From: Gammaproteobacteria bacterium
Lineage (GTDB): Bacteria; Pseudomonadota; Gammaproteobacteria; SZUA-140
Reading direction: 5' to 3'
Length of the DNA: 34,297 nucleotides
Assembly (NCBI GenBank): GCA_015491865.1
Contig: WFVD01000005.1
Coordinates: forward strand, 1-34,297
Under the pieces are notes generated by a model. That model had not been told where the DNA came from, searched no databases, and saw only the letters and a list, made by a program, of their open reading frames with translations. Shown here piece after piece: positions 27,921 through 32,366 of this stretch. Numbering within the stretch: position 1 is the stretch's first letter; each line of letters starts with the position of its first letter. The position numbers and the translations under genes were made by a program.

Positions 27921-29349
27921 TTAGCTTGCTTTGTCGATCGCTTTTTTATTATTGGGCACTGCACCTGCGGTTGTCATGTCGACATCCTCCAGGATAGCGT
28001 CGATGTCGCTGCCATTAACATCAGCGGGGGTGGCTGTTACCGCTCTGGGTGTATCGCTATCGATAGTTGCTGCGAGTAGTGCATCAATATCATCGACGTC
28101 TGTTTTAGCTGTTTCTCTTTCAGGCGTGAGTGGTGACTCATCAGTCTGATCTGTTGCTGTTGCGGCTAACAGCGCATCAATATCATCTGCATCGATCTCC
28201 TCTGTTGATTCCGGTTTTATATCATCGCCGGCAGTGGCCGCCAGTAAGTCGTCGATCTCATCAGGGTTAAAAGCCTCTTCAATGTTTGATGAGCCTGTTT
28301 CCCTGGCAGAGGTCACCTCACCATCTGCACTGCTTGCTGCCAGCAGTGCATCAATATCATCGTCTGCCAGCGTTGCCGCTTTCTCTGTCGTTTCGGTCAC
28401 TGGCGGTGTAACTTGCGGAGCTGAAGCGCTATCGAGACCGAGGTCAATACCGAACTCTGTTTCATTTTCGTTGCTATCGGGTGGGTTGTCGCTTGTCTTA
28501 TTTGTGTCGCTTATCTCCCCGATATCATCGATACTCAGGAACGGGTTTTTCTCTTCTTCGTCCTCAGGTTCGATTGTGTGAGTCGCTTCTTTATCTGCTT
28601 CTTCAACTGGGGGTTCGCTAGCTATGTCGGTAGTGCTCTCCTGTTCTGCCGTTGCCTCTTTACTGGATGGTTGGGCGTCACCATTATCGGTAGTATCTCC
28701 CGTGGGGCTTTCAGGTGACGGCTCAGGCATCTCATCTTTCTGAGCAGATAATTTCTGTTGCTGCGCGATTTTTTCTTCCGCAGCGTCACGCCCGCCACTA
28801 AAAGCTGAGATAAACTCTGCGACAGTCTCTCGCATCTCCTTCTTCGCAGCGGCTAGCTCTTTCTCAAGATGTGCATTGATTTGAAGTGAGGTAGAGAGCT
28901 CATTCTGGAGGCGATTGTTTTCATCTTTTAGTTCGGTGAGTTCTTTACTGTCGTTGCTGTTAGTCACCGTCGTATTTTCAACTCTGGTGGCACCAGCTCT
29001 GGAGTAGGCGTCAATGAGCGCCGTGATTCTATGATCAAGGTTCACTAATGCCGCGCTATCTCGACTGGCGTAGATCTCCATCATTGTCATATAGAACTCA
29101 ATCTCTCTGTTTTGGAGCTCTTTTGCTGCGGTGGCGAGTGCTTCGCCTTCAAGATGATGGCTCTCTTTGAGTTTTACTGAGAGTCGATTCAGGTGCTCTT
29201 CTTTACTGTCTTGCAGCTTCTTTGTGAGCTGTGCCAACGCTTTTCTGTCGTTACGCTGCTGGCGTAATTTTAGAAAGATAAGTGCACCGCTTAACACGAG
29301 TAGAAATAAAACGATTTCAGCAAGAATCAGCGATAGTGATGCGTAAAGA

Positions 29350-29357
<8 letters not shown>
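27921..29357 (-). CDS. Membrane-anchored coiled-coil protein with five FliM-like EIDALL repeats
   Basis: Not a recognised family. The 478-residue protein has an N-terminal membrane helix (about residues 7-29), then a basic stretch and a largely helical, coiled-coil-like region (about 30-195, including ELTELKDENNRLQNEL). A very acidic, disordered tail follows. In the tail the motif DIDALLAA or a close variant recurs five times, with its first Ile at residues 335, 368, 393, 424 and 452, spaced 25-33 residues apart; the last copy is DIDAILED. This motif resembles the EIDALL peptide at the N-terminus of FliM and FliN. The tail is probably cytoplasmic if the membrane helix is N-out. The gene overlaps the upstream vWA gene by 8 nt and is surely co-expressed with it. 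Confidence 0.85.
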
Positions 29358-31182
<1,825 letters not shown>

Positions 31183-31447: not shown

Positions 31448-31477
31448 TTGCATATTTGTTGAGTGTTTTGCTATGTT
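31448..31477 (+). promoter_or_regulatory. Candidate promoter of the 31-residue protein gene
   Basis: TTGCAT, an 18-nt spacer and TATGTT with an extended -10 TGC directly before it. The predicted transcript starts near 31485, giving a leader of about 70 nt before the ATG at 31555. Confidence 0.45.
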
Positions 31478-31554
31478 ACTTTCCGAAGGGGGGATGCAGC
31501 AGCAGCGTATTCCTAGCATAACTTACAGTGTTTGATTTTGAGGAGATGAGAATA

Positions 31555-31650
31555 ATGTCTGATGCAAATATTTCTAAACAGGATGGACTTTTTGTTTTTG
31601 CTATCGCAGCAATCATTACTGTTTTAGGCCTGATTGGCACAAACATCTAA
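31555..31650 (+). CDS. 31-residue single-span membrane micro-protein (paralogue 1)
   Basis: An ATG with AGGAG nine bases upstream opens a 31-codon gene. The product has a short polar N-terminus (MSDANISKQD) and one hydrophobic helix of about 18 residues (from Leu12 to Ile27), then a tiny tail. It aligns with the 33-residue product at 32181: NISKQDGLFVFAIAAI against NINKNDSLIVIATTAI. Conservation at the protein level between two copies, with strong ribosome sites, supports real translation. I do not recognise the family. Possibilities include a small subunit of a respiratory or transport complex (as CydX or KdpF are) or a hydrophobic type I toxin. No cysteine or histidine is present. Confidence 0.7.
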   Translation: MSDANISKQDGLFVFAIAAIITVLGLIGTNI

Positions 31651-32180
31651 GTGTGTCGATTTGAATGGGCCTAGTTTCATTCAGTCTCGGTTAACACTTT
31701 AAAGTAAAAAAATTGCACCTGTCCCGCTCTCCCTTTCTCGGGTGAGGCTGGGCAGACCCAGGCGGTGGTTGGTTAATATTCGATTTAATGGCTAAGTGCC
31801 ATGGTCGGGGATTGCCACCACCGCTTTTAATATCCCATTTCCGCTTATCCTCGCGAAGTACTTCTCTATCAACAGCCTGGCTAGCGGTATTTGAAACACC
31901 CTAGATTGGCAGACATGCAGTATTGATACTACAGGATGGTTATATCCCATTTTTCCTGCGATCATTATCGGCTGTTTCTGATAATGATGGTGTGATTTCT
32001 CTGTAGGTGTTTCCATTGCTATGGTGTGGGTAAAGCGTCTTGATTCCTTATCCTTCTTTATGTATGGTTTAAATACCACTTGATTGCAGTGGGTATTATC
32101 CCAGTGCTTTAGTAGGTTAATTCAGCCGGTGTTGTGGTTGATGGCGACTAAATTAAAATGTTGAATGGAGGAGAAGTAAG
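31651..32180. other. 530-bp region between the two micro-protein genes
   Basis: No supported gene. A 95-codon minus-strand frame (31792-32079, GTG start) lacks a ribosome site and any recognisable similarity. Structure seen: ATGGC/GCCAT dyad (31788-31802), the 9-bp everted repeat at 31961-31988, and CCACT/AGTGG near 32075-32091. No clear terminator follows the first micro-protein gene and no convincing promoter precedes the second, so they could share one transcript or be separated by an antisense or leader RNA. Confidence 0.55.
31961..31988. repeat. Perfect 9-bp inverted repeat with Fur-like half-sites
   Basis: ATCATTATC (31961-31969) and GATAATGAT (31980-31988) are exact reverse complements separated by 10 nt. 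Each arm equals a half of the classical Fur box, but the halves face the wrong way round (everted), so it may instead be an RNA hairpin. Confidence 0.5.
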
Positions 32181-32282
32181 ATGTCTACAGCAGTAAATAT
32201 TAATAAAAATGATTCCCTGATTGTGATTGCGACTACCGCTATCCTTTTGGGTCTCTGGGCGCTTGCAATCGTTCTTGAGTAG
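32181..32282 (+). CDS. 33-residue single-span membrane micro-protein (paralogue 2)
   Basis: GGAGGAG seven bases before the ATG is an almost ideal ribosome site. The product starts MSTAVNINKND and continues into one hydrophobic helix (about residues 13-31) containing a single Trp, ending LE. It is clearly related to the 31-residue protein encoded 530 nt upstream, with shared MS start, N-I-x-K-x-D motif before the helix, and similar length. A two-hairpin 3' region with a strong terminator follows, so the gene has a defined transcript end. It lies upstream of birA but is separated from it by that terminator. Function unknown. Confidence 0.75.
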   Translation: MSTAVNINKNDSLIVIATTAILLGLWALAIVLE

Positions 32283-32324: not shown

Positions 32325-32334
32325 TTGATAATCG

Positions 32335-32366
32335 CCAGCACGAGCTGTTTTCGTGCTGGTTTTTTT
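32335..32366 (+). terminator. Rho-independent terminator
   Basis: CCAGCACGA (32335-32343) pairs perfectly with TCGTGCTGG (32351-32359) across a 7-nt loop, followed by seven T. It ends the transcript of the 33-residue protein gene and isolates it from birA. Confidence 0.92.

Follow-up and report, generated by a model that had tools for sequence, protein, structure and literature searches.

Two small genes and their control elements

The stretch of DNA analysed here (the window) is the forward strand of contig WFVD01000005.1, 34,297 nt, from assembly GCA_015491865.1 of a Gammaproteobacteria bacterium (SZUA-140). It carries two genes, A and B, for single-span membrane proteins of 31 and 33 residues. 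Read from the sequence, each is a complete and separate monocistronic gene with its own conserved promoter, Shine-Dalgarno sequence and intrinsic terminator. Both promoters are predictions, recognized through conservation together with consensus. The features of the locus are as follows.

31448–31477 (+): predicted promoter of A, TTGCAT, 18 nt, TATGTT; strongly conserved in 6 aligned genomes
31491–31513 (+): hairpin in the 5' leader of A, GGGATGC-N9-GTATTCC; pairing kept over 9 genomes
31540–31545 (+): Shine-Dalgarno of A, GAGGAG; read from the sequence and conserved in the 6-genome alignment
31555–31650 (+): gene A, MSDANISKQDGLFVFAIAAIITVLGLIGTNI, 31-aa single-span membrane protein; supported by orthologues, pN/pS and an outside-family profile
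31762–31830 (+; hairpin 31762–31824): intrinsic terminator of A, a long stem GCGGTGGT...ACCACCGC followed by TTTT; conserved in 6 genomes
32040–32068 (+): predicted promoter of B, TTGATT, 17 nt, TATGGT; a conserved stretch at the 3' end of a spacer that otherwise varies
32072–32097 (+): inverted repeat at the 5' end of the B leader, AATACCACT...AGTGGGTATT; both arms changed in several genomes
32167–32173 (+): Shine-Dalgarno of B, GGAGGAG; read from the sequence
32181–32282 (+): gene B, MSTAVNINKNDSLIVIATTAILLGLWALAIVLE, 33-aa single-span membrane protein; supported by orthologues, pN/pS and an outside-family profile
32334–32366 (+): intrinsic terminator of B, an 11-bp stem with a T tract; -17.7 kcal/mol, z -4.7

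An earlier note, made from the DNA letters alone, had described two open reading frames of 31 and 33 codons, each with a strong Shine-Dalgarno, and its positions proved exact. The terminator it assigned to the second gene is present as well, and A also has one of its own, where a folded 92-nt segment reaches -40.2 kcal/mol (z -3.4). In the 6-genome alignment, the 530-bp spacer between A and B resolves into the A terminator, a drifting middle and then the B promoter. Both leaders contain an inverted repeat near the 5' end. The hairpin of A is paired in 98.4% of cells over 9 genomes, against 28 to 59% for slid versions, and two of its pairs have changed on both sides and are thus compensated. 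The repeat in the B leader is weaker, because folding the leader in full gives a different minimum-energy structure. These repeats may reflect RNA-level control of the two tiny genes. Searching Rfam over the whole window returned no match.

Conservation, paralogy and the wider family

Of the 9 other genomes of the genus, 8 have an orthologue of A and 6 an orthologue of B, several of these genomes being incomplete MAGs. Start codon, Shine-Dalgarno and length are retained and the changes are mostly synonymous, giving pooled pN/pS values of 0.22 for A and 0.34 for B. Both genes are under purifying selection, and their position is retained across the genus; this is the comparison of relatives' reading frames that the earlier note had named as its check. 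Their length lies under the usual gene-calling size, as might be expected of non-coding or spurious frames, but the pN/pS values and the conservation of start, Shine-Dalgarno and length in many genomes leave that reading extremely improbable.

The proposal that A and B are paralogues also held. A third copy, C (MSTTINTANTSKTDGVIIIALAAIVAALWAVGVAIN, 36 aa), lies on another contig of the same genome (G000:C6:127187-127294, minus strand) and matches both. In addition, a profile from which the window's taxonomic family had been left out entirely detects all three among 1472 six-frame segments, with E values of 1e-9 for A, 4e-7 (3.9e-7) for B and 5e-7 for C, while the next-best segment has E 0.36 and reversed sequences give none below 6. 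On these sequence matches, A, B and C are paralogues. Among gammaproteobacterial MAGs, the relatives with names are Chromatiales HyVt-459, Chromatiaceae SZUA-76, D96SM.bin.20 and two others, and a relative of B adjoins birA in another genus.

From the collected loci, 54 distinct members were gathered, and by sequence A, B and C belong to a previously undescribed family of single-helix membrane micro-proteins of about 30 to 41 aa. Genomes hold one to five copies, and tandem pairs recur. Members have strong Shine-Dalgarno sequences, variable N termini and a single invariant Asp, followed by 21 to 25 residues that include a strongly hydrophobic helix; the positive charges are almost all N-terminal of the Asp. 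Of the N-I-x-K-x-D box that the earlier note placed at the membrane boundary, the Asp is invariant throughout the family, while the whole box is not. Iterated profiles detect the family in 17 of 20 genomes from the order, including all 10 of good quality, and also in several further taxonomic families within the class. The claim that the peptides match no known small protein stood up: Pfam and NCBIfam, searched with single proteins and with all 54 members, gave merely scattered weak matches to unrelated families, and two profiles found no match in the PDB up to E 10. A phylum-wide search of 200 genomes returned the window genome alone, plus a match in G521 inside an unrelated 97-aa frame. There was no match to A in a phage collection or to B in a plasmid collection.

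A candidate partner: an ExbB/MotA-like channel with a vWA protein

MotA/ExbB/TolQ-type motors provide the power for flagella and gliding, for nutrient import, and for envelope upkeep and phage defence. When the neighbours of 41 small-gene loci were clustered, a recurrent gene order emerged: a small gene, an ExbB/MotA-like gene, then a protein of about 255 aa that has a vWA-type motif and a single helix at its N terminus. The small gene lies directly upstream of the ExbB-like and vWA genes, on the same strand, in 9 genomes from 3 taxonomic families (loci L121, L125, L126, L127, L129, L132, L142, L151 and L152), where it is probably a separate transcription unit. Most of the small proteins at these positions carry W-x-D-[IV]-S before the invariant Asp (absent at L121 and L125, present at L126, L127, L129, L132, L142, L151 and L152), and its bearers may form a motor-linked subfamily.

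The window genome has its own copy of this predicted motor on a different contig from A and B (G000:C8:196975), with an ExbB-like protein that matches Pfam MotA_ExbB at E 1.2e-7. Across 35 motor partner proteins there is an invariant Asp (D18) in the helix, as well as D-A-[ST]-G-S and G-D-E-P motifs. Pfam does not recognize a vWA domain in the window genome's partner protein, so the vWA assignment rests on these motifs. The micro-protein helix and the Asp helix of the partner have no detectable homology (hhalign probability 0.3%), and the shared layout of an Asp followed by a helix is therefore a resemblance only.

Co-distribution of the micro-proteins and the motor

The survey sample consisted of 369 genomes of the class Gammaproteobacteria. 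A motor-type ExbB-like gene was found in 33 of them, using a model seeded from loci that adjoin small genes. With the first small-protein profile there were 18 carrier genomes, and all 18 had the ExbB-like gene. An improved profile flagged 7 further genomes, 6 of which were among the 15 that had until then appeared motor-only; the added small genes in G162, G274, G259, G187 and G294 read as short open reading frames with good Shine-Dalgarno sequences and the Asp. The seventh, G221, was discarded as a spurious match inside a 544-aa frame. The motor thus accompanies the small gene in 24 of 24 carriers, a count that includes G369, whose locus is clipped and does not read cleanly. In the other direction, a small gene was detected in 24 of the 33 motor genomes; the remaining 9 may lack it or it may have been missed, and no small open reading frame adjoining the motor was found in the genomes without a detected small gene. 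Seeding the model by adjacency does not explain the match, because the two genes lie far apart in most small-positive genomes outside the seed loci, the window genome included.

Shared ancestry was considered using a LeuS tree of 72 genomes (a single-gene tree with a chosen subset of negatives), of which 31 have the motor and 24 the small gene. By parsimony, the motor changes state about 11 times and the small gene about 12 times, and joint positives, among them G055, G094, G014 and the G187/G294 group, lie nested within negatives. Simulations of independent evolution never placed all small-positive tips inside the motor set (0 of 26,084). A dependent model is preferred over an independent one (LR 48.1, 4 df, p ~9e-10), with the rates of the dependent model at their bounds. 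The co-distribution of the small gene and the motor survives this phylogenetic control, and its use as a clue to function is new here. We regard the link between the micro-protein family and the motor as well supported and likely to be real.

Proposed role and competing explanations

Since the family is confined to motor-encoding genomes among the 369 surveyed, its members are probably small helpers or regulators of the motor. That they are accessory or regulatory micro-subunits of the ExbB-like/vWA motor we put at an even chance, and much the same holds for direct binding of the micro-protein to it. Of the two functions guessed at in the earlier note, an accessory subunit of a membrane complex has turned out the better, and a candidate complex can now be named, to which the micro-proteins may bind. 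In this scheme, A and B would be two of the window genome's three single-span inner-membrane micro-proteins, each made from its own gene. The variable N terminus, with its invariant Asp, would lie at the membrane boundary, probably on the cytoplasmic side in the predicted topology, and a single, almost tail-less helix of about 20 residues would follow. The motor served would be a proton-driven MotA/ExbB-type channel, whose partner would combine a MotB/ExbD-like helix bearing its invariant Asp with a vWA-type domain containing a MIDAS-like motif. Within the membrane, the micro-protein may bind the channel–vWA complex and, once bound, may adjust its assembly or gating. Separately transcribed paralogues could then supply different versions to a single motor. 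With several such paralogues for one motor, the micro-proteins look more like interchangeable modulators than like a part of fixed stoichiometry, and the finding of up to five small copies per motor likewise argues against fixed stoichiometry. Weighing against the micro-subunit reading are the 9 motor genomes with no detected small gene, the location of the window genome's motor on a different contig, the probably separate transcription of the small gene where it adjoins the motor, and the lack of detectable homology between the two helices. A bolder version appears doubtful to us: proton-driven motors of a new class would have the micro-protein as a third component, integral yet exchangeable, its Asp-led helix would sit in or against the ExbB-like ring (e.g., as a second, unlike axle helix or a plug), and cells would switch motor behaviour via separately regulated paralogues.

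Other explanations must be weighed against the micro-subunit reading. The micro-proteins could be stand-alone stress or membrane-modulating small proteins (cf. YohP) with no fixed partner, in which case their correlation with the motor would stem from a shared lifestyle. Multiple separately transcribed copies in differing gene neighbourhoods would suit such a role, as would the structured leader, which suggests regulation. However, the nesting within motor-positive genomes persists after phylogenetic control, the small gene adjoins the motor in 3 families, and an invariant Asp with a fixed 21- to 25-residue tail suggests a specific contact, and we consider a stand-alone role fairly unlikely. 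A respiratory partner is possible because several motor loci adjoin cbb3-oxidase assembly genes. The micro-proteins would then belong, as small subunits, to a respiratory complex, for example a cbb3-type oxidase (cf. CcoM, CydX), and be tied to the motor merely by shared physiology or location. Size and topology fit, CcoM being itself a 36-aa subunit of the cbb3 oxidase, and in several families the motor loci adjoin CcoG-like, cytochrome c and haem-copper oxidase subunit I genes. Against this, none of the small genes inspected lies inside an oxidase operon, the CcoM model (NF041600) is touched by 1 of the 54 members with a best E of 0.78, and the PDB search up to E 10 matched no chain. cbb3 oxidases are also far wider in distribution than the micro-protein family (24 of 369 genomes), and this reading is in our judgement unlikely.

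The other guess of the earlier note, a type I toxin-like peptide regulated by antisense RNA from the 530-bp spacer, fared badly. The small, hydrophobic character of the peptides and their tandem copies in several genomes recall such toxins, but no sign of antisense turned up, the spacer is unconserved with no promoter-like site reported on its minus strand, and Rfam has no match. The genes are also retained in place genus-wide, A is absent from the phage collection and B from the plasmid collection, and their presence follows the motor genes on the phylogeny. A toxin is accordingly a very remote prospect. The motor link offers a clear prediction for the bench, in the form of co-purification and a shared phenotype.

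Relation to known systems

A TolQ-like channel with a vWA axle that bears an Asp helix was predicted in 2025, as the second of the vWA families treated there, and is described as being of unknown function (PMC12204202, section 8). As in these TolQ-like/TPH-vWA motors, the genes co-distributed with the micro-proteins encode a MotA/TolQ/ExbB-family channel and, after it, a tethered vWA-type protein with an invariant-Asp helix, and a separate TolR/ExbD gene is absent beside the pair. The vWA genes of the predicted motors mostly come in heterologous pairs (PMC12204202, section 8), whereas here a single vWA gene follows the channel and the micro-protein is an addition; section 8 of that paper does not mention a micro-protein partner. 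For a motor branch predicted so recently, the family is a first handle on an additional part: a dedicated set of micro-proteins that follows the motor through evolution and sits under normal gene-calling limits.

In their tiny single-span form, the micro-proteins resemble CcoM, CydX, KdpF and AcrZ, all accessory subunits of larger membrane complexes. Unlike these, they have no Pfam or NCBIfam relation, have another candidate partner and occur as several dispersed paralogues per genome. The single helices of ExbD, TolR and MotB offer another parallel, in that the end in the cytoplasm is short and a conserved Asp stands close to where the one helix starts, but the micro-proteins are without a periplasmic domain and are not detectably homologous to the Asp helix of the vWA partner. 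Type I toxins such as Ibs and Ldr are likewise short and hydrophobic and sometimes tandem; they differ in that no antisense partner has been seen here, and in the invariant acidic residue and motor-tracking presence of the micro-proteins.

Other genes near the small genes and the motor

Divergent from A, the minus strand of the window at 27921–31182 encodes a 610-aa vWA protein (its TIGR03503 match lies below cut-off) and a 478-aa protein, anchored in the membrane and unmatched in Pfam, in which D-D-I-D-A-L-L-A-A motifs are repeated. The large vWA protein was rejected as a specific partner of A; its gene occurs in 39 of 80 genomes, a far broader distribution, and is thus a neighbour rather than a partner. 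In other genera, both this gene and birA are also found near small genes. The motor genes adjoin CcoG-like genes in several families (L125, L126, L129, L132, L151 and L152), and some also adjoin haem-copper oxidase genes. Bactofilin-type genes recur near the micro-protein and motor genes: at L120 and L122 they lie between the small genes and the large vWA gene, the L122 copy matching Pfam at E 3e-22 and the others being assigned by eye, and at L170 (8551–8964) one comes after the motor vWA gene.
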